53,959 nucleotides of DNA, taken from Acholeplasmatales bacterium. Its GTDB lineage: Bacteria; Bacillota_I; Bacilli_A; Izemoplasmatales; Izemoplasmataceae. Of this stretch, positions 8,853 through 41,030 are shown piece by piece. The DNA is taken from contig RECF01000067.1 of the NCBI GenBank assembly GCA_007694145.1, forward strand, positions 1 through 53,959. The letters are read 5' to 3'. Under the pieces are notes generated by a model. That model did no database searches. It was not told the origin of the DNA and was given only the letters and a program-made list of their open reading frames with translations. Both the position numbers and the translations under genes were made by a program. Each line of letters starts with the position of its first letter. The stretch's first letter is position 1.

Positions 8853-9767
8853 ATGATGGAAACATTCAAGCTTGATGGCACACAAGGGGCCCTCATACAA
8901 GGTTACTGCCTACAACCGAATAAGAAACCGGTTAAAGTACTGCACATTTTGCACGGCATGGGCGAACACGCACAGCGTTATGAAACGTTTGCCCGGGCCA
9001 TGACCGAACACGGCATTGCCGTCTATGCGCACGACCATCGCGCCCACGGTCAAAGCTTGATGCCGGCTCAAACCGTCGGGATCTTGTCTGGTGCGGACAG
9101 TCTTGAAACGATTGTAGACGACGTTGAAATCGTCCAAGATTACATCCGCCAAAACCATCCCGATGTGACGGTCATGATGCTTGGACACAGTATGGGTTCA
9201 GTCATTTTACGTGCGTATCTTGAGCAGACGTCCCGAACGTTTGACCGCATCGTGATTATGGGTTCACCCCCTTACTACGGGGCAGTCTACACCAAAATGA
9301 TGCGTTTGCTCGGCAAGGTGATGGCAACTCGAAAAAAACCGACAGCCCGCCACGACAAACTTGCCGATTTACTGAATGATGGTTTGATCAAGAAGATTCC
9401 CCATGCCCAAACGGCCTTCGATTGGCTGAGTTATGATCAGGCGAATGTGAAAGCCTATGAAGAAGATCCCGCCTGTGGTTATGCCTACAATGCCCCGTTC
9501 TACCTGTCGTTTTTCGCCTTGCTTGACCGGGTGAACAGCCGCCGCTGCATCGCCATGCAACCACCGGTACCGACCTTGCTCATTTGTGGCGCGGACGACC
9601 CGCTGAATCCCAGTGACAAGACCTTGACGCAGCTGTCCATCCGCTACCGCCAAGCCCATCCCGACATGACGCTTGAGGTGATCTCCGTTTCTCGGGCCCG
9701 CCATGAAGTTCTCAACGAGCTGAATAAGGCGGATACCTTTACCAAACTGGCGCAGTTCTTCGCGTGA
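8853..9767 (+). CDS. alpha/beta hydrolase, monoacylglycerol lipase/lysophospholipase type
   Basis: 304-residue serine hydrolase. It has the oxyanion-hole segment HGMGEHAQRY, the nucleophile elbow GHSMGS, an acid residue in LLICGADDPLNPS and a catalytic His in RARHEVLNE, in the expected order. HGxxEH plus GHSMG is typical of the monoglyceride lipase/lysophospholipase group, so the likely substrate is a lipid ester at the membrane. AAGGAGG at 8838-8844 selects ATG 8853 (8856 is a second ATG). The frame is open further upstream but without a ribosome site. Its stop overlaps the start of the regulator gene, suggesting co-expression. Confidence 0.85.
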   Translation: MMETFKLDGTQGALIQGYCLQPNKKPVKVLHILHGMGEHAQRYETFARAMTEHGIAVYAHDHRAHGQSLMPAQTVGILSGADSLETIVDDVEIVQDYIRQNHPDVTVMMLGHSMGSVILRAYLEQTSRTFDRIVIMGSPPYYGAVYTKMMRLLGKVMATRKKPTARHDKLADLLNDGLIKKIPHAQTAFDWLSYDQANVKAYEEDPACGYAYNAPFYLSFFALLDRVNSRRCIAMQPPVPTLLICGADDPLNPSDKTLTQLSIRYRQAHPDMTLEVISVSRARHEVLNELNKADTFTKLAQFFA

Positions 9768-11038
9768 AGACAAACCACCAAGCGCTTGGCCTTCACGAGG
9801 ATAACTTGAAAATCCTCGGTCACCAGCTCAAACAAGTTCGTCTCAAACGGGATTACTCATTGCGCGGTATGGCCCGGGCGATGCATCTTTCACCCTCTGT
9901 CATTGCCGACATCGAAGAAGGCCGCCGTATCACGACATGCGACGTGCTTGCACAGATGTTTGGCCATCTTAACATGGTATTTTTACATGACCCTATCTTA
10001 ATCAAAGCGGCCATCGCGGATTGCAAACTGTATCACGAAGCCCTTTATCATCGCAACCATGATTTTGCGACAGAAATTTATGCACGTCTTGAAGCGGTGA
10101 CCCCCTCACTTGAACACTCACCCTTGCTCGTTGAGATGCAGTGGGTACGTGTCGCCCACAAGTTTTTTGTTAAAGCGGACTACGATTTGACACAACTTGA
10201 AGCCTATACGTCTTACATCCAATACTTTTCCGAAGAGCAAACCCAGCGCTATTACTTTTTGCTCGGTTATGCCTATCTCTATCAAGATGCACCGGAAACA
10301 GGCTTTGCCTATTTGATGAAAGCGCGGCAGTTTACCGCTAACAACCGACTGTATGGCATGACTTTGACACGGTTGGCCGAACTGCACCAATACCGTCATG
10401 AGTTGTATCAAGCCATTGAGACAAGTCGGCTGGCCAGTAAGATCCATGCCGAGAATGCCAACGTGTATGAAAAGTTTGAATCGGACTGGCGTCTTGCGAG
10501 AAACCTGATTGAGGTGGGCAGCAACGATGAAGCCCGTATTTTGATTACCCATATGGAAGCGAGTCTGTTGGTGAACTCCGAGGAAAACGGCTGGGTGCTC
10601 TCCCATGTACGCTTTTTGCGTGCGCTAGCGGAGTATATGATTGGCCATGCCGAGGGTGCTTTGCGTGTTATGGCGCAACATGACGACATGCTCAACTTGG
10701 AGTATGGCCGGTTTTTTCATGCGCTTGTGCTGGACACCTTGGGGCGCACCACCGAAGCCTTAGCTACGTTGAAACAACAGCTTGCAGACCACCCTGATTC
10801 AACAAGTGTATTCAAGGATTTAGCTGTCTACTTCATGCATTACCTGGACAAGGAAACCCAGGTCTCTGAGTTTGAAGCCCATCTGGAACCGTTTTTGAAT
10901 AAGCCTAACAAGATTCCGAGCCCATTCATATACCACTGGGTTCTTGATTGTGCTGTGCGTTTTCTTGAAGGGCGCGGTGAAATAGCCAAAGCGTTTGAAA
11001 TTGCGAAACATGCACTCGCCAATCGAACCTTCTATTAG
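9764..11038 (+). CDS. XRE-type HTH regulator with TPR-like C-terminus (copy 1)
   Basis: 424-residue predicted transcription factor. Residues about 20-75 form an XRE helix-turn-helix (QVRLKRDYSLRGMARAMHLS ... IEEGRR). The rest is helical with TPR-like repeats, the architecture of Rgg/PlcR/PrgX-type regulators that bind short peptides. GTG 9764 overlaps the preceding stop but has no clear ribosome site. TTG 9806, preceded by ACGAGG, is an equally plausible start and would shorten the protein by 14 residues before the HTH. A palindrome and short transcription unit lie directly downstream. Two similar genes occur within 10 kb. Whether it senses a peptide is inference. Confidence 0.82.
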   Translation: MKTNHQALGLHEDNLKILGHQLKQVRLKRDYSLRGMARAMHLSPSVIADIEEGRRITTCDVLAQMFGHLNMVFLHDPILIKAAIADCKLYHEALYHRNHDFATEIYARLEAVTPSLEHSPLLVEMQWVRVAHKFFVKADYDLTQLEAYTSYIQYFSEEQTQRYYFLLGYAYLYQDAPETGFAYLMKARQFTANNRLYGMTLTRLAELHQYRHELYQAIETSRLASKIHAENANVYEKFESDWRLARNLIEVGSNDEARILITHMEASLLVNSEENGWVLSHVRFLRALAEYMIGHAEGALRVMAQHDDMLNLEYGRFFHALVLDTLGRTTEALATLKQQLADHPDSTSVFKDLAVYFMHYLDKETQVSEFEAHLEPFLNKPNKIPSPFIYHWVLDCAVRFLEGRGEIAKAFEIAKHALANRTFY

Positions 11039-12447: not shown

Positions 12448-13621
12448 ACTGGATTATATCGAACAGTGGGTTGCCACACTCAAAGACGAAGGCGTCTTTC
12501 GCACCTTGCCGGTGCTAGAAGGACCTTGCGATGCACACATTCGCCTAGGCGGCCGTGACATCATCAATCTTTCAAGCAACAACTATCTGGGTCTTGCCAA
12601 TCATCCTCGTCTCAAAGCGGCCGCCACAGAAGCGATCGCGCAGTATGGGGTCGGTGCGGGCAGTGTCCGGACCATCGTTGGAAACAGCATCCTGCTTGAG
12701 AGGCTTGAATCGACCTTGGCCGCCTTCAAAGAAGAAGAAGCCGTGATTTGTTTTCAATCGGGACTAAATTGTAACATCGGTACCATTCAGGCCATTGTCG
12801 ACAAAGGGGATTTGATTGTCAGCGATGCTTTGAACCATGCCTCCATCATTGATGGTGTCCGACTTTCAAAGGCAGATAAGGCGGTCTACCGCCACAATGA
12901 CATGGCCCATCTTGAGGACATACTCAAGACGCGACGTGCGGACTATCGGAACGTTTTGATTATTACCGACGGGGTGTTTTCGATGGATGGCGATCTCGCG
13001 TTGCTACCTGACATCGTGCGTTTAGCCAAGCACTATGACGCCCTGACGTATGTCGACGATGCGCACGGCTCTGGCGTCCTCGGTCGCAGTGGCCGGGGCA
13101 CGGTCGATCACTTTGGCTTACATGGTGAAATCGACTTTATTATTGGCACCTTGTCAAAAGCCATTGGCGTGGTTGGCGGTTATGTGGCCACTAAGCAGTC
13201 GGTCAAGGACTGGCTCTTGCATCGTGCTAGACCGTTGCTCTTTTCCACCGCGCCTCCCCCTGCAGCGACTGCCGCAACCATTACGGCGGTAGAAATGTTA
13301 ATGGAAAGTGAAGCCTATACCCAAAAACTGTGGGAAAATGCCCGTTATTTCAAGGCCGGCCTTGAAAAACTGGGGTTTGACATCGGTATCAGCCAAACAC
13401 CCATCACACCGGTGATGATTGGCGCGGAAGCGCAAACGATGGCTTTTTCGAAAGCGTTGCTTGAAGCCGGTGTCTTTGTATCAGGGATCGTTTTTCCAAC
13501 CGTACCCAAAGGACGCGGGCGTGTCCGGGCCATGGTCAGTGCCGCCCATACACGCGATGACCTTGACCAAGCGATTGATGTCTTTGCCAAGGTGGGCAAA
13601 ACACTGGGTGTTATCGCGTGA
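12440..13621 (+). CDS. kbl: glycine C-acetyltransferase (2-amino-3-ketobutyrate CoA ligase)
   Basis: PLP-dependent alpha-oxoamine synthase of 393 residues that cleaves 2-amino-3-ketobutyrate with CoA to glycine and acetyl-CoA, completing threonine degradation. Visible family motifs are [12 protein letters not shown], the Asp motif [12 protein letters not shown], and the PLP lysine in [16 protein letters not shown] 12440 follows GGAG at 12427-12430. An ATG 12 codons earlier lacks a ribosome site. The start overlaps tdh by eight bases, so translation is coupled. Related 8-amino-7-oxononanoate synthases (BioF) are similar, but the tdh partner decides the call. Confidence 0.92.
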
Positions 13622-14580
13622 TGCGGATTGCGAGACATCCCGGTTATCTGATTCTTACCGTGTTTGCCCTCATCCTGACCGGGGTGACCGCCATCAATAT
13701 TGCCATCGTGCAGCGTCCCCTCTTTCCGCTCTTTGCCGTTTTGGCCGCCTTGGCGGTTTATGTGATGATTCGCACGTATCGAACCGATGTCCATGCGCAG
13801 CCAGCAACCGTGCGCACATGGCATGCGCTAGGCACCGAAAGCTTAGCTGTTTTCGGTGGGGCCGTGCTGACGTATGCACTCCATTGCAATACGCCACTTG
13901 ATGTCGTCTTGTCGACTGGCTTAGTCGGGACGCTGGTGGCACTCTTTTTCAAGCGTGTCCAGGTACCGGCTTACTGTGGTGCTTTTGTGGGTATGAGTAG
14001 TCCGCTCCTTTTGGGGTGGGGGCCGTTCTTGCTTGCGGCTGTGCTCGCGGCACTCATCTTTGTCATCGTCAAGGATACATACAACGGTTTTGGCGGTAAA
14101 CTTGGGACCATCGCTTTTGCCGGAGCTTTTGTGGCGGGGATGGTGCTTCGCTCGCCGTTTCTTGAGGGCAACCGGTTTACAGTCGTTGAGAGCTTATGGG
14201 TGATTGGCGTTAGCATCGTCTCGGCTTTGATGACATATTGGGTGAATATTCGCTTGCGTCAAGGGCCGGTGCTTGCGAGTGCGTTTGTCGGACTCTATTT
14301 AGGGGCGCTTTTGATTCTGTTACCTGCATTGCCTTCAGCGTTGCCGGTCGTTGCGATGGGTGCGACGTTTGTGGGCATGAGCAGCTATGAACGGTTGCCT
14401 GGTGCGATGATTGTTGCAATGGCTGGAGGTTTGTTTGGACTGTTGTTCATTTTCAGTGCCCCATACTTCAACGGTGCAGGGGGAAAACTCGGGACCATGG
14501 CATTCATCAGTACACTCGCCTTGGCTGGGCTCAACCTGACCGCAAAAAGCGCTTGGCAGCGGCTCAAAACCACATCATAA
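13621..14580 (+). CDS. polytopic membrane protein with internal duplication, function unknown
   Basis: 319-residue protein with about nine or ten hydrophobic segments, not recognised. It has two similar halves: AFVGMSSPLLLGWGPF followed by GGKLGTIAFAGAF, and later TFVGMSSYERLPG followed by GGKLGTMAFISTLAL. The repeat suggests a transporter- or channel-like fold from gene duplication. ATG 13621 shares its A with the kbl stop codon, so it is translated with the threonine-degradation genes. A role in export or uptake of a pathway metabolite is possible but only inferred from position. Confidence 0.65.
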   Translation: MRIARHPGYLILTVFALILTGVTAINIAIVQRPLFPLFAVLAALAVYVMIRTYRTDVHAQPATVRTWHALGTESLAVFGGAVLTYALHCNTPLDVVLSTGLVGTLVALFFKRVQVPAYCGAFVGMSSPLLLGWGPFLLAAVLAALIFVIVKDTYNGFGGKLGTIAFAGAFVAGMVLRSPFLEGNRFTVVESLWVIGVSIVSALMTYWVNIRLRQGPVLASAFVGLYLGALLILLPALPSALPVVAMGATFVGMSSYERLPGAMIVAMAGGLFGLLFIFSAPYFNGAGGKLGTMAFISTLALAGLNLTAKSAWQRLKTTS

Positions 14581-14582
14581 AA

Positions 14583-14612
14583 CAAGCCCTGAACAGCTGT
14601 TCAGGGCTTTGT
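14583..14612 (+). terminator. terminator after the tdh-kbl unit
   Basis: Near-perfect inverted repeat AAGCCCTGAACAG/CTGTTCAGGGCTT (14584-14609). The T-run is short, so termination may be partial. Confidence 0.55.
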
Positions 14613-14650: not shown

Positions 14651-17155
14651 ATGGTCATGAATCAAACTGAAATCCATGAAGCATGGCGAAAGGGCACGGT
14701 CATCCGGTTCCGCTATGGTCAGCGGTTGGCCACGGCAAAGTTCTATGCAGGACGTGTGGTACAACTGTTTCCGTCCCAAGACAAAGTGCGCCTCGTTTTA
14801 TGTGATTTAAAGACGGTCAAGCCACTCATTGATGATGTAGGCGCGTCGCAGACATTCACGTTTTCCTTGACCGCGATGCATGACGTTGAAAGCATGCCTT
14901 GGCTCACATGGCCCATGGCATCCATTGAGGCATCGCCAGTTGAACCGATGCCTGCGAAAACTTGCGAAGCAGCATGGTTCGCCCCGTTATATGCCAAGTC
15001 CCGCTATCAAACCGTCGATGCGCTTAAGCCCCTGTCACTTCTAGATGGGAAAGCGGCACGGTGTCATGTCTACCGCAATCGGTTGTCTGTCATTGTCTTG
15101 GGGGTGACGCAGCCTATCTATTCTGAAGTTTTGCGTTATGACCTTGTTGAGGGCACCTGGCAGGTTAGCGGGACCATGCTTCATGCCGAGCAGCCGCTTT
15201 ATCGCTATTTTAAACGACTTCCCACCCGCGATGCCCATCCTGAAGACGCGGTCACATTTTTGAAACAACACGCGCGAACCGATATCGAGTGTGATGACAC
15301 AGCGCGGTGGCTTATTGAGCATCGCAATATACCAGCCCGTGATCATGACCGTCTTAAAACATTGTTTGACGCGGGAGAGGGCAACCGGCCTTTTGCAACG
15401 TTTTCCGGACTGCGTAATACCTGGCAACGTGGGCGGCGGGCTGTCCTTCTGCCGGTATTGCCAAACCGCTTCAATCTGCGTGTCATGCACGCAGTTCATG
15501 AAGGTTTCAAAGGACCCGTGACGCTGGTTAAATCATCGCTTGATCTCCTTGCAAAGGACATGGTGGATCTGTTTGTCCTCACTGCGCTCATGAGCGATAC
15601 CCGCGTGCTTGTCATCGATGGCTCAGCCGGACTGGATTTGACACCTTGGCCTGGCATCATGCGACTGGGGCAGGCAGAAACCATCATCGCCGACCTCGAC
15701 GTGCCCGCGCACCGCCATAACCGTGACGCGTGCCCGTTGACTGAACTGCCAGAGGACGTTTTTACGGCGCTTGAAACGGGCGATCTTTGGGCAAGAGAAG
15801 TCGCAGCCTTACAAGCCTATGAACACCATGCGCTCAGTCGCGGTCTATTCCATGAAAGCATTCGCCTGCAGACGCGACTCAGTGAAGCGTATCAACGGGT
15901 TCCAGTCGTGCCGGTATCGTCTTGGCTTGATACCGATTTCACCGCGCAGGATTGGTTTGATACTTTATGCAAGTCAGCACGCAGGCGGCACATGAAACGG
16001 GCCCGTCATGGTTATGGTCCGCTGACCGAAGTATTTGAAGCTGTGCGAGAAGGCAATGTGACGCCGTTGCTCAAATCCTTGCGTGATCCGGCTTTTTTCC
16101 ACAAGTTCAAACACATTTTTCCGGTCTTGATTGTGCGCCATAGCGGCATACTGCCGTATGTCCGCCATGCATTTGATCATGTCGTTATGATCGATCCTGC
16201 GCCCACAGCGCTGACCGACTTGCTTTATGCTAACTGCCTGACCGTGGTTGAAACCGCATCACCCCGTTACAGGCATCCGGCGAAGACAGGGTTACCAGGC
16301 TATCATGCAGAACACTATGGCGACCTGTTTGGCGTACTCAAACACCAATCTTCAAACGGTGTCAAAGTTTTGTCGCGCGAGCGGACCCTTTGTGAGGTGC
16401 CTGTTCGGGTGCACCGTGTCGCCAATGAAACTGAAAGTGACCCACACCTTGCCAAACAAGAAGTCAAACAGTTGTTACACGTCTTCAAGACGCATCCCCA
16501 ACCGGGTGTTTTGCGGACGCCATTTAATGTGCAGCGTCAAGCTTTAAAAGCAAACCTTGGTCACGCTGTTGAAACACTTTATCACCCCGTGATCGGGCAA
16601 CCTTTATGGATTTCCTGGGTCATCCATCCTGCCATGCCGCAAAAAACATACGACTGGCTGAAAAACAACCCGCACATCTTGCGAACCCTTGCCTTGGCCG
16701 AGTCGATTGAATCATGGATTGATTTGGATGCACTCGATCGCCTGTCAGATGGTCAGGATGGGATTTACCATCATGTGCATCAGGGTGTCCATCCTGACAC
16801 CACATTGTATCGCTTACCACCGCTGACGCACGTGTTCAAAACACTGTTTACCGAGGATTTCGACATGTGGATGGCGCGGGATGTGCTTTTGCAGCAAATC
16901 AAAGGATTTGAACCCTTCGGATCATGGCAGGCACGCTATGTGTTCAGCGACGCATCTAAGAAGGTGCGTCTGATGGTGCTTGTTGATGAGGAAACACGCC
17001 CTTACGAGGCGCTGCTTACACTGCAAGCGAAAGCCAAAGCACACGGTGTGACGGTGCTGATTCTTTCTCCAGCGCAACAAGCCTTGTTCAATGAACACGT
17101 ACTTTGGATGCAACCATTGGGTTGGCTCAAGGCAGAACAGCAGGTGTCCGGATGA
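14651..17155 (+). CDS. degenerate SF1 helicase-like protein
   Basis: 834-residue protein that by eye follows the layout of large Bacilli SF1 (UPF1-like) helicases with a C-terminal nuclease-like domain, but the ATPase motifs are gone. Where Walker A (GPPGTGKT) is expected, residues about 288-300 read GPVTLVKSSLDLL. Where Walker B (DEAS) is expected, IDPAP occurs at 514-518. Motif III GDxxQLP is replaced by ETASPRYRHP. The later segment TPFNVQRQALKANL matches motif IV/TPYxxQ. The C-terminal 70 residues recall a decayed DUF2726-type fold. The frame is intact, so this is a kept protein, perhaps a scaffold or nucleic-acid binder. GGGAGGTG selects ATG 14651. It overlaps the next regulator gene. 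Confidence 0.55.
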   Translation: MVMNQTEIHEAWRKGTVIRFRYGQRLATAKFYAGRVVQLFPSQDKVRLVLCDLKTVKPLIDDVGASQTFTFSLTAMHDVESMPWLTWPMASIEASPVEPMPAKTCEAAWFAPLYAKSRYQTVDALKPLSLLDGKAARCHVYRNRLSVIVLGVTQPIYSEVLRYDLVEGTWQVSGTMLHAEQPLYRYFKRLPTRDAHPEDAVTFLKQHARTDIECDDTARWLIEHRNIPARDHDRLKTLFDAGEGNRPFATFSGLRNTWQRGRRAVLLPVLPNRFNLRVMHAVHEGFKGPVTLVKSSLDLLAKDMVDLFVLTALMSDTRVLVIDGSAGLDLTPWPGIMRLGQAETIIADLDVPAHRHNRDACPLTELPEDVFTALETGDLWAREVAALQAYEHHALSRGLFHESIRLQTRLSEAYQRVPVVPVSSWLDTDFTAQDWFDTLCKSARRRHMKRARHGYGPLTEVFEAVREGNVTPLLKSLRDPAFFHKFKHIFPVLIVRHSGILPYVRHAFDHVVMIDPAPTALTDLLYANCLTVVETASPRYRHPAKTGLPGYHAEHYGDLFGVLKHQSSNGVKVLSRERTLCEVPVRVHRVANETESDPHLAKQEVKQLLHVFKTHPQPGVLRTPFNVQRQALKANLGHAVETLYHPVIGQPLWISWVIHPAMPQKTYDWLKNNPHILRTLALAESIESWIDLDALDRLSDGQDGIYHHVHQGVHPDTTLYRLPPLTHVFKTLFTEDFDMWMARDVLLQQIKGFEPFGSWQARYVFSDASKKVRLMVLVDEETRPYEALLTLQAKAKAHGVTVLILSPAQQALFNEHVLWMQPLGWLKAEQQVSG

Positions 17156-18411
17156 GTACATGGCTGCTTGAAGAACGCTGGCGACTCGGCCAGCTGGTTC
17201 GTTTTCATCGCACCCAAAGTGGCCAATCGCTTCGGATGCTTGAGACCCGGATGGGCCGGTCGCACACGTGGTTTTCACTCGTTGAGCAAGGCGAAGTGGT
17301 TATGGAACCGGCGATGTGGCAGAAAGTGTGTGCTGCGCTCAGTCTCTCGCCTAGCGAAGACACCCAGCAACACGAGATGTTTCAAGAAGCGTATGACATG
17401 ATGCTTGAACGCTATGTATATGGAGACTCTCAAGCCCTGACCGGTTTTATTGGTCAATGGGTGGACCTGCACGAAAGGATGTTGTTGTCTGTTGATGTGG
17501 TCGATTACTTGTTGGCGATGGCGCTGACAGCGCCCTTTGATGAAGCCGGTCAGCAACCCTGGTCGACCGCCGAAGTGCTCAACGCACTAAAACCCCTCAT
17601 CGCCATCATGACAAGCATGCAACGCTTTATCTGGTATTTGGTGCACGGGCGATTGTTGCTAGGCAAGCATCGCTACGAAGCGGCCCGTCAGGCATTGGAT
17701 CAAGCACTCAACGAGCCGGTCTCACCGGCTTTAGAAGATATCGGTGTCTTTTTTCGTGTCCAAGCGCTCAGCCAAAGCTATCGTCTTTACGATGCGATGC
17801 GCACGTATGATAGGCTCATTGAAAACTTTGAACGACGTGGGCAGCTTTACCGGGCAATAGAGACGAAACTAGCCAGCGTCATGAACTTGATCCGCATGCA
17901 TCATCTTGATTCAGCCCGGATCCGTCTTGAAGGGGTGGCGGATTTTGTGCGGCAAAGAGGGCGCAGGGAACTGTTTCGACCGATGATTGAAATGAGCATG
18001 TTGCTCTACTTGTTGAAGGGGGAACATGAAACGGTCTTACGCTATGCGGCCGAACTGAAGGTTCACAGCCCGCGTTCGGGCTTTTATCAGGCTTATGCTG
18101 CCGAACGCTTGCAGCGTCCGGTTGACGATTTTCAAATCGCGTATGAAGACGATGCACTTGAACCCCATGCGCGTCTTTACCTGCGTCTCACTCGACATAT
18201 TCGCCATCATCAAAACCACCATGAAGCGCAAGATGAAGCGGTGAACTGGCTGTTGGAAGCGTATGAAGATTTCAAAAGGTATGATTTGTTTCCTGAAGCC
18301 ACCTTGATTTATGATACACTAAAAGAGACCTTGACCCGAGCGCGTCGGTACAAGGAAGCCTACCAGGTCACGCTCGATATGATCGAGATGGTCAAGAAAA
18401 TGTTGAACTGA
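17152..18411 (+). CDS. XRE-type HTH regulator with TPR-like C-terminus (copy 2)
   Basis: 419-residue protein. The N-terminal HTH (about residues 12-67; VRFHRTQSGQSLRMLETRMG ... LVEQGE) is followed by a long helical TPR-like region, the same design as the products at 9764 and 19390. ATG 17152 overlaps the stop of the helicase-like gene (ATGA), so the two are probably translated together and may act together. The frame is open 16 codons upstream inside the previous gene, but without reason to prefer it. Target and inducer unknown. Confidence 0.78.
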   Translation: MSTWLLEERWRLGQLVRFHRTQSGQSLRMLETRMGRSHTWFSLVEQGEVVMEPAMWQKVCAALSLSPSEDTQQHEMFQEAYDMMLERYVYGDSQALTGFIGQWVDLHERMLLSVDVVDYLLAMALTAPFDEAGQQPWSTAEVLNALKPLIAIMTSMQRFIWYLVHGRLLLGKHRYEAARQALDQALNEPVSPALEDIGVFFRVQALSQSYRLYDAMRTYDRLIENFERRGQLYRAIETKLASVMNLIRMHHLDSARIRLEGVADFVRQRGRRELFRPMIEMSMLLYLLKGEHETVLRYAAELKVHSPRSGFYQAYAAERLQRPVDDFQIAYEDDALEPHARLYLRLTRHIRHHQNHHEAQDEAVNWLLEAYEDFKRYDLFPEATLIYDTLKETLTRARRYKEAYQVTLDMIEMVKKMLN

Positions 18412-18424
18412 AAGGTGAGACCCG

Positions 18425-18793
18425 ATGGATTTTTGTATATTTTGCAGCCAAGCCCACCAGAAAATCTATGAAAACAAGTATGTCTATGCTGTCTATGACA
18501 CGTTTCCCGTGTCGCCCGGCCACGTTCTGATTATTCCCAAAGCCCACCGTGAAACATATTTCGAAGCGTCCTTCAAAGAAATGGTCGCCATCAATGAAGC
18601 CATTCAAGTTTTGAAAGACCGTTTAGACAGTCAGTTCAAACCGGATGGTTACAACATCGGCATCAACAACGGCAAGGCGGCCGGTCAGACGGTCTTTCAT
18701 CTTCATGTTCATCTCATTCCTCGCTACGAAGGGGACATGGACAATCCGCGTGGTGGTGTGCGAGGCGTGATTCCCCACAAGCAAAAATACTAA
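18425..18793 (+). CDS. hit: HIT family protein (nucleotide-binding hydrolase)
   Basis: 122-residue histidine-triad protein. The motif HLHVHLIP near residue 97 is the nucleotide-phosphate-cleaving site. An N-terminal CIFC pair suggests the usual zinc site. HIT proteins of this length hydrolyse nucleoside phosphoramidates or dinucleoside polyphosphates in the cytosol. The start follows AAAGGTGAG, 13 bases after the preceding regulator gene. A bidirectional terminator follows. Confidence 0.92.
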   Translation: MDFCIFCSQAHQKIYENKYVYAVYDTFPVSPGHVLIIPKAHRETYFEASFKEMVAINEAIQVLKDRLDSQFKPDGYNIGINNGKAAGQTVFHLHVHLIPRYEGDMDNPRGGVRGVIPHKQKY

Positions 18794-19389: not shown

Positions 19390-20649
19390 ATGTATCAGAC
19401 GATCGATAAGAATTTCGCACTCAAAGTGCGCATGTACCGCGTTGAACAAGGATTGAGCCTACGCGCTCTAGCCGACGCGACCAGCTTGTCTAAGTCGCAT
19501 CTTTCTGACATCGAACGCGGTCTTGTACCGGTGCATTTAGATGCTGTCAACACACTGAAGCGTGTGTTGCAGTTCAACCACCGGACCACATCGCGACATG
19601 TGACAGCCTTTAAGCGGACAACAAGCGAATTACATGATATGCTGATATCAGGCGATGAAGCTGGTGCTCAAGCGCTAGCAGCGACACTGGAAAAACACAT
19701 GATCACGTACACGAGCGGGCCGCTTTGCCTAGAATATTACCTGATCATGCTGATGTATGCTTTGTTTACTGAAAGAAAACGCATCGTCATCGAGCCTTAC
19801 TTCAAGCGCGTCGAGGCCGTTGCCGATTTACTTGAGGGGTCAAAAAAGCGTTGGGTGTTATTGCTTAGGATGTTTTACTACCTCTATCTATATGATCTCA
19901 AGCGGACCGAACAAGCCCTCGCTGCCCTTAGAGAAACCACATTGTCGCCACTTTATGAAGGCTTTGCGCTTTATATCGAAGCGATGTTACACGTGTATGA
20001 CTACCGACGGTTTACAGCGGCTCTTGAAATATTCGATAAGGCTAAAGCACAGTTTATCGGTCTCAACAGCTTCTATTTCGTGATGCGTATCCGGGTTATC
20101 GAACAACGCTTGCATGTCTACCGGCAAAGCTTTGTGATTTTTTGGCAGCTCCATGAAGCCACGGAAAGTTACGCCCAAATCCATGGAAACAGTTTGTTGC
20201 AACGGGACAATCAGGGAAATGTCTTACGCTATCACCTCATCAATGGCGACTACACGTCGATGGTCGAGCTGATTGAAACATTTGACGAGCGCCAGCAAAT
20301 CGACCAGTTTCTCCAAATATACGCCTTATACCGACTCGGCCGTCATAACGATGCACAACGTTTGATTCACATGGTTGACATCACGCCGGAATCATCGTTT
20401 ATGATACCGCTACAACAAGGCATTGAAACGCTGGCTCACATGATCCAGACCGATGCCGACCAGCTGGATTTGCGCCGGCTCGTTGCCTTCGCCGAGTCCG
20501 CATATCAAGCGTCTAACTATCTCATGATCAGAATTTCCCACAAGATACTTTCAGAAGCTTTACAAGCGCGTAGGCAATACAAGGAAGCCCTCTATTATGG
20601 TGAGCGGTTGCTGACCATCATGTGGGCGATGACTGGAGGGGTTCGATGA
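19390..20649 (+). CDS. XRE-type HTH regulator with TPR-like C-terminus (copy 3)
   Basis: 419-residue protein of the same design as copies 1 and 2: HTH at about residues 11-60 ([20 protein letters not shown] ... HLSDIERG), then TPR-like helices. GGGGGTG precedes ATG 19390. Its stop overlaps the start of the YjbQ gene, and an M48 membrane protease gene follows. In RRNPP-type systems a membrane protease may mature the signal peptide, so that neighbour is suggestive, though no peptide gene is visible here. Confidence 0.8.
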
Positions 20650-40810: not shown

Positions 40811-40811
40811 T

Positions 40812-41030
40812 GAAAAGCGTTGCCGGACAAAGTAGACAGAACGTCGTGTAAAGAGACCTGGTGGCTGGTGTGAACCAGGCACGACCCTGACGAAATACAC
40901 CCGGAAGCTTCCGTGTCAAAAGCACGGACGGTGGACCCGTTATCGCAAACAAGCGTCACGACAGTGAAAAAAAGGTGGTACCGCGGACCCATGTTCGTCC
41001 TTTTGGTCTTCAGGCACCACCTTTTGTATT
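40812..41030 (+). promoter_or_regulatory. tyrosine T-box riboswitch
   Basis: Leader of tyrS. The T-box core AAGGTGGTACCGCGG lies at 40972-40986. Stem I carries CTGGTGTGAACCAG and a specifier loop reading GAAATACACC with the Tyr codon UAC at 40896-40898. The terminator helix pairs AAAAGGTGGT (40970-40979) with ACCACCTTTT (41016-41025). Uncharged tRNA-Tyr would favour the antiterminator and allow tyrS expression. Confidence 0.93.

Follow-up and report, generated by a model that had tools for sequence, protein, structure and literature searches.

Few helicases are known to have lost their motor and retained a function; the classic example is RecC. In the available text on RecC (PMC1185551), both the helicase domains and the nuclease domain of the protein are described as inactivated; the former have been adapted to recognize Chi, and the latter provides an aperture for a DNA strand. 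The PriA protein of D. radiodurans has lost its ATPase activity and kept DNA binding, according to the accessible part of its description (PMC4504706). The WYL domain has been found joined to an SF1 helicase in TePif1, where the available text calls it crucial for ssDNA binding and helicase activity, and the same text reports that the WYL domain of DriD binds ssDNA (PMC9964779). In eukaryotes, Utp25, a helicase-like protein of the SSU-processome involved in ribosome assembly, is called a pseudohelicase in the accessible part of PMC9539457. In the available portions of the literature on pseudohelicases, inactive bacterial SF1 helicases and DUF2726 helicases, we found no description of the clade presented here, which we named PHEL.

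The window, i.e., the whole stretch of DNA that we analyzed, is 53,959 nucleotides long and lies in contig C76 of a 1.86-Mb draft genome (G000) of the family Izemoplasmataceae. The GC content falls to 36% in positions 1-2000, compared to about 50% elsewhere, and a T-box leader is present at 40811-41005 (106.9 bits). Named relatives include 'Candidatus Izimaplasma' MAGs labelled CSBr16 and CSSed16, labels that we take to stand for Cock Soda Lake brine and sediment. MAGs similar to Izimaplasma are reported from hypersaline soda lakes, including Cock Soda Lake, in the available text of PMC6146748.

Results

PHEL is a conserved open reading frame

The putative pseudo-helicase gene PHEL occupies positions 14651..17155 on the + strand (834 codons), as delimited from its frame, alignment, profile match and ribosome-binding site. 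The frame is open through 17155 from either 14633 (first ATG) or 14651. Since the ribosome-binding site GGGAGGTG stands just 5' of the ATG at 14651, we preferred this start, which is also the one chosen in the initial annotation. The unbroken 834-codon frame described there was borne out, and so was the overlap with an XRE-TPR gene, an ATGA of 4 bases at 17152-17155. A chance or wrong open frame was ruled out by the presence of homologues in related genomes. Among the 12 carriers, the frame is full-length and unbroken in 10; PHEL of G015 is truncated by the contig end, and in that of G012 one frameshift, either real or an assembly error, splits the gene over two frames (L022 2299-2470). The encoded protein is basic (pI 8.4-9.4) in 8 of 9 members, with a pI of 7.0 for that of G013, and ranks 10th by pI among the 35 soluble ORFs of the window, so that a basic pI is not unusual among its neighbours. 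Searches with PHEL returned nothing significant in Pfam, NCBIfam, PADLOC (cut-off 0.01) or the PDB at the sequence level.

PHEL aligns end to end with intact helicase-nucleases

A homologue search in 61 related genomes yielded, among its matches, full proteins of ~1,000 aa with GPPGTGKT and DEAG. When a profile of nine PHEL was compared with a profile of six intact proteins, the match reached 99.9% probability (E 3.3e-34) over 811 columns. Judged by this comparison, PHEL is homologous end to end with the intact ~1,000-aa SF1 helicase-nucleases of Bacilli. No match was obtained when PHEL was compared with one representative of the second SF1 helicase type, that of ~1,240 aa (probability 1.8%). 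Both intact proteins that we scanned contain AAA_11 and AAA_12, and one of the two also contains DUF2726; a whole-length match to such relatives is what the initial annotation had guessed. The relatives of the intact type in the PDB are Sen1, Dna2, SMUBP-2 and Upf1. One intact relative (L029) matches the PADLOC model MkoC at 8.5e-54, whereas PHEL has no PADLOC Mko match. The intact relatives that we read occupy varying loci, other than the PHEL locus, and some of them adjoin, by eye, restriction-type or ATPase-like genes. The intact-type helicase of G072 (L121 1467-3554) has GPPGTGKM as Walker A, not GPPGTGKT.

All motor motifs are lost and two other segments are kept

With the helicase motifs named and delimited as is customary, the nine aligned PHEL rows all lack Walker A, the DE of Walker B and motifs III, V and VI, and motif IV is deleted. 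The DUF2726 catalytic residues (D, E-x-x-G-x-E-H, K) are likewise missing from 9/9 rows. In the alignment, the Walker A stretch YVQGPPGTGKTQT of the intact relatives stands opposite LVKSSLDLLAKDM in PHEL, and the replaced P-loop (motif I) is therefore SSLDLLAK (15533..15556, + strand, residues 295-302). The replacement of Walker A had been correctly recognized in the initial annotation, but the segment named there, GPVTLVK, is the preceding strand. DPAP (16193..16204, + strand, residues 515-518) was located by alignment close to the position of Walker B (motif II), where DEAG of the intact relatives faces the IDPAP stretch of PHEL one column out of register; the proposed change from Walker B to DPAP is right in substance. 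At the place of motif III, GDPNQL of the intact relatives stands opposite ETASPRYRHP (16250..16279, + strand, residues 534-543), as had been proposed. The deletion of motif IV and the losses of motifs V and VI and of the DUF2726 catalytic residues come in addition to what had been noticed. We also looked for intact ATPase motifs in the rest of the protein: no P-loop, DEAG/DEAS or QGxE was found anywhere else in the PHEL protein of the window, and a P-loop scan (GxxxxGK[T/S]) over the entire protein was negative for all 10 PHEL members.

Other segments of the helicase body could be aligned with the intact rows. TPFNVQ (16517..16534, + strand, residues 623-628) has been conserved in the second RecA-like lobe; TPFxxQ is present in 8 of 9 PHEL and in both intact rows, and reads T-V-F-x-x-D in G013. 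KTYDWLKN (16643..16666, + strand, residues 665-672) is kept just before the lost motif VI, and Y-x-W-[LI]-K is found in 9/9 PHEL members. From the alignment, TPFxxQ and YxWxK are non-catalytic segments that persist in PHEL. Seventeen columns are invariant in the nine PHEL, of which 9 are common to both intact rows (8 of these 9 in the RecA-like lobes). Among the 8 invariant columns not common to both, 4 fall within residues 1-92, which represent 11% of the length (hypergeometric P 0.007), although the numbers are small and four of the 8 match one intact row.

Structure models place PHEL among Upf1-like helicases

The window PHEL was modelled from nine sequences (mean pLDDT 76.9, pTM 0.58), and a second model was obtained for PHEL of G018 (mean pLDDT 67.6), the two modelled members being 20-21% identical. 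A Foldseek search of the PDB with the window model gave IGHMBP2 as the best match (4b3g, E 1.5e-9), then Upf1, followed by ZNFX1 and Dna2. The G018 model matched IGHMBP2 (E 3.3e-11), Senataxin, Upf1, Aquarius and Sen1, so that RecA-like SF1B helicases came top for two different members. VIA-align superposed the window model on IGHMBP2 (4b3f) with Z 14.6 over 359 residues and an rmsd of 14.1 (overall rmsd 13-14 A), which points to domains rotated relative to one another. According to these models, PHEL is built of tandem RecA-like lobes in an Upf1-type arrangement, with a different relative placing of the domains. RecC was not among the structures listed for either model, which is no proof against kinship.

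The N-terminal domain (14651..14926, + strand, residues 1-92) was compared by VIA-align with ssDNA-bound DriD (Z 9.9, rmsd 2.4, 79 residues), and the N-terminus of the G018 protein matched PafBC (Z 9.5, rmsd 3.0, 87 residues) and DriD; overall, the WYL-domain matches of the PHEL models were to DriD, PafBC or BrxR. The Pfam WYL sequence model listed no PHEL match at E up to 10. The predicted WYL fold of the PHEL N-terminus is thus recognized by fold alone. The C-terminal region (16799..17152, + strand, residues 717-834) stands where the intact relatives have their DUF2726 nuclease domain, and lacks the catalytic residues. Its predicted elements follow a plausible order, and the match of its own profile to the intact nuclease domain is weak (9% probability). 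PHEL is probably a pseudo-nuclease as well, with weak support for a kinship of this region to the PD-(D/E)xK fold.

PHEL occupies one fixed place in part of one family

Among 49 genomes of the family, 16 gave a match, 12 with PHEL and 4 with the intact type only. Only one of the 12 carriers (G028) was found to have an intact paralogue of the same family as well, in a set of incomplete drafts. The carriers belong to 6 of the 17 genera of the family, and every searched member of these six genera has PHEL. At the order level (90 genomes), 21 matched, namely the 12 PHEL and 9 weak local matches (≤73 bits). A class-level sample of 395 genomes gave 46 matches: the 8 PHEL among them all come from the family, and the remaining 38 score ≤78 bits; the 4 of these 38 loci that were read all have GPPGTGKT. 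In these searches, PHEL is therefore known from one family only. A tree from KBL alone was too weak. The distribution was examined on a tree from eight other genes of the locus. On the best tree the trait needs 2 changes, and 1 change is enough in 6% of 200 bootstrap trees; the carrier G013 groups with non-carriers at 92/82. A single event was not retained, and one gain plus one loss of PHEL would be compatible with the tree.

The gene order, XRE1-TDH-KBL-MP-[PHEL]-XRE2-HIT-MP2-XRE3-UPF0047, is largely conserved on both sides. MP (13618..14580, + strand), a membrane protein gene of conserved place, directly precedes PHEL in 12/12 carriers, and an XRE/TPR gene comes next after PHEL in the 11 carriers whose contig continues (that of G015 ends inside PHEL). 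Among 11 non-carriers of the family that have MP, MP is directly followed by the XRE/TPR gene in 10, and the contig ends in the remaining one; in these 10, the regulator of G063 is labelled XRE3 by best hit and that of G072 is in pieces. Given this adjacency and the conserved order, PHEL was either inserted at, or lost from, a single fixed site. In-place decay of an intact gene is not favoured, as the intact relatives are at other loci and MP and XRE2 are adjacent in non-carriers.

The neighbours have features of their own. MP, found in 41 of the 120 genomes searched, contains an internal repeat (GFGGKLGT and GAGGKLGT) and matches neither an NCBIfam family nor, above the cut-off, any Pfam family. 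XRE2, the XRE/TPR regulator whose start overlaps the PHEL stop, lies at 17152..18411 (+ strand), with an HTH_31 match for 17140-18408. The next gene of the unit, also conserved in place, encodes a HIT-type protein, named by eye (18425..18793, + strand). Three XRE/TPR-type regulator genes stand within 11 kb (9764-11038, 17152-18411 and 19390-20649), each conserved in place, and at least one relative of these regulators is present in 47 of the 49 family genomes. The XRE2 gene of G072 is fragmented, with an in-frame stop (L165 5437-6716). In genus g16, a gene of ~610 aa, PAS-GGDEF-EAL-like by eye, stands just before MP2 (L155 7411-9243, L159 8695-10557).

Selection and expression signals

The selection acting on PHEL was estimated on pairs from the same genus. 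In three such pairs, pN was 0.36, 0.26 and 0.37, compared to pS of 0.81, 0.73 and 0.75; a fourth pair (G003-G018) gave pN 0.43 and pS 0.76. In the two pairs with a computable dS, w was 0.11, with dS near saturation. PHEL evolves much faster than KBL, with 43-61% identity within genera compared to 86-91% for KBL and a mean distance in genus g7 of 1.88 compared to 0.15. These substitution patterns support that PHEL is kept under purifying selection and is conserved, not decaying, and the retention of the protein, which had been read from the unbroken frame in the initial annotation, is supported by pN far below pS.

A terminator-like hairpin is predicted by folding between MP and PHEL (14584..14609, + strand), and such a hairpin was found 3' of MP in 10/12 carriers (folds judged by eye), being absent in G012 and G013. 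Upstream of PHEL, an extended -10 promoter pattern (TTGNNN-17-TANAAT with TG) was observed in 9/12 carriers, 11-26 bases 5' of the start codon, as called by a simple pattern. The same pattern occurred in 15 of 6000 shuffled stretches (two-base-block shuffles) and in 0/10 non-carriers between MP and XRE2. The pattern is likewise lacking in G000 and G001, which represent the window's own genus, and in G012, so that the expression of PHEL in the window is less certain. In the 9 carriers measured, the distance from the PHEL stop to the XRE2 start ranges from -4 to +21 bases. Taken together, these signals suggest that in most carriers PHEL stands first in a unit of its own, PHEL-XRE2(-HIT).

Evolutionary distances of the neighbours were compared with those of PHEL by partial correlation, giving 0.85 for MP, 0.83 for XRE3, 0.72 for MP2, 0.66 for XRE1, 0.49 for XRE2 and 0.43 for HIT. 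XRE2 was not favoured as a co-evolving partner, its correlation being above that of HIT only. Moreover, XRE2 does not need PHEL, since it is found without PHEL in 10/11 non-carriers.

Discussion

Homology, two structure models and the loss of motifs in nine of nine members uphold the SF1 helicase scaffold without ATPase motifs that was first proposed, and PHEL is almost certainly a conserved pseudo-enzyme, a pseudo-helicase, as judged from its sequence. The two outcomes named beforehand as speaking against it, a structural search without RecA-like folds and intact motifs in another part of the protein, were both looked for and neither was observed. A single lineage here offers the intact relatives, the pseudo-enzymes in ten full-length copies and the insertion site with its flanks, so that the conversion of a motor can be traced by comparison. 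The rarity of such proteins also holds, with RecC, D. radiodurans PriA and Utp25 as precedents; the role of scaffold or sensor that the initial annotation gave to PHEL is one that we infer.

We propose that a gene for a WYL-like/SF1B (Upf1-like) helicase/DUF2726-nuclease came between tdh-kbl-MP and the XRE/TPR gene in an Izemoplasma-type family. The inserted gene would then have been stripped of every ATP-handling motif and of the nuclease residues, and purifying selection would afterwards have kept it. The helicase body, with its two lobes, and the WYL-like domain would serve as a platform that binds nucleic acid independently of ATP, much as RecC does; RecC is the best analogue for how PHEL may work. 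PHEL would be co-produced with XRE2, the XRE/TPR regulator encoded next to it, and could signal to or bind either this regulator or another partner. Because PHEL has the same kind of parts as RecC, PriA and WYL proteins, such a platform is its most likely job. By this analogy, we lean towards PHEL binding nucleic acid. We also favour, with modest confidence, the explanation as a whole, that of a dead helicase-nuclease kept as a nucleic-acid platform and possibly reporting to a partner.

In PHEL, a motorless helicase body encoded beside a regulator gene carries a WYL-like domain, of a type that senses ssDNA in regulators like DriD. The coupling of the two genes is what suggests a regulatory link between PHEL and XRE2, which we regard as tentative. 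A signalling pseudo-enzyme whose dead motor body and WYL-like domain bind nucleic acid (e.g., ssDNA or RNA) as a signal and pass it to the co-translated XRE/TPR regulator is an unlikely reading; if it were true, a former defence-type or repair enzyme would serve as the input module of a transcription circuit.

Alternatively, PHEL might be the dead partner that guides a strand in a helicase-nuclease complex for repair or defence, in which another ATPase does the work. The pair of lost activities is identical to that of RecC, as given in the available text of PMC1185551, the intact relatives match defence-helicase models (MkoC), and the restriction-type or ATPase-like genes seen by eye beside some of them point in the same direction. 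However, 11 of the 12 carriers, whose drafts are incomplete, yielded no intact paralogue of the same family, the PHEL operon has no ATPase or nuclease gene, and its constant place in a core locus differs from that of a mobile defence locus. We therefore consider such a subunit fairly unlikely.

PHEL could also have lost nucleic-acid binding and act as an adaptor that binds proteins only, XRE2/TPR or MP. The translational coupling with XRE2, the distance correlation with MP, the highest of all, and the changes in the nucleic-acid-facing motifs Ia, III and V would all fit such an adaptor. The retention of TPFxxQ and of the RecA2 core, the constraint on the WYL-like domain and the basic pI in 8/9 members speak against it, and we find it improbable. 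An old motor rebuilt around a new active site, with another catalytic activity, would account for the residues D52, D61, D509, K572, E604, K671 and D703, which are invariant in 9/9 members. But five of these seven columns show no visible new motif, D509, K572, E604 and K671 are common to intact helicases and so look structural, and helicases are the only enzymes that rank high in the structure searches, which makes a new enzyme very improbable. Finally, an old helicase gene turning into a pseudogene is scarcely credible: it would agree with the fast evolution, the G012 frameshift and the absence of PHEL in sister genera, but not with a pN far below pS, full-length frames in 10/12 carriers, an ordered pattern in which some segments are retained and others completely lost in all members, and a promoter pattern of its own in 9/12 carriers.

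The platform that we favour can be compared with described systems. The closest are the intact WYL-like/SF1B helicase/DUF2726 proteins of Bacilli (e.g., L029:6202-9222, 1006 aa), which have the domain order of PHEL and share with it the KT[YF]DWLKN and TPFxxQ segments. Unlike PHEL, they retain GPPGTGKT, DEAG, GDPNQL, QGDEKD, TTRAK and the nuclease residues; they are ~170 aa longer, and their neighbourhoods vary whereas the PHEL locus is fixed. The WYL regulators DriD and PafBC have the fold matched by PHEL residues 1-92. In the WYL-domain Pif1 helicases of thermophiles the ATPase is active and the WYL domain C-terminal, whereas the WYL-like domain of PHEL is N-terminal and the motor motifs are gone. 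Utp25, as the available text presents it, resembles PHEL in being helicase-like and termed a pseudohelicase, but is a eukaryotic ribosome-assembly component. The PriA pseudohelicase, a bacterial helicase without ATPase and unwinding activities that retains DNA binding in the accessible account (PMC4504706), is comparable with PHEL. However, PriA is its family's own orthologue, with a role in replication restart, whereas PHEL is a distinct gene established at a new site. RecC and PHEL both have dead SF1 motors, and RecC has kept its dead PD-(D/E)xK-like domain in a non-catalytic role; the available text (PMC1185551) makes RecC a kin of RecB that works with RecB and RecD, whereas PHEL is Upf1-like among the structures listed and has a WYL-like domain; the likeness is drawn by function, not by descent.
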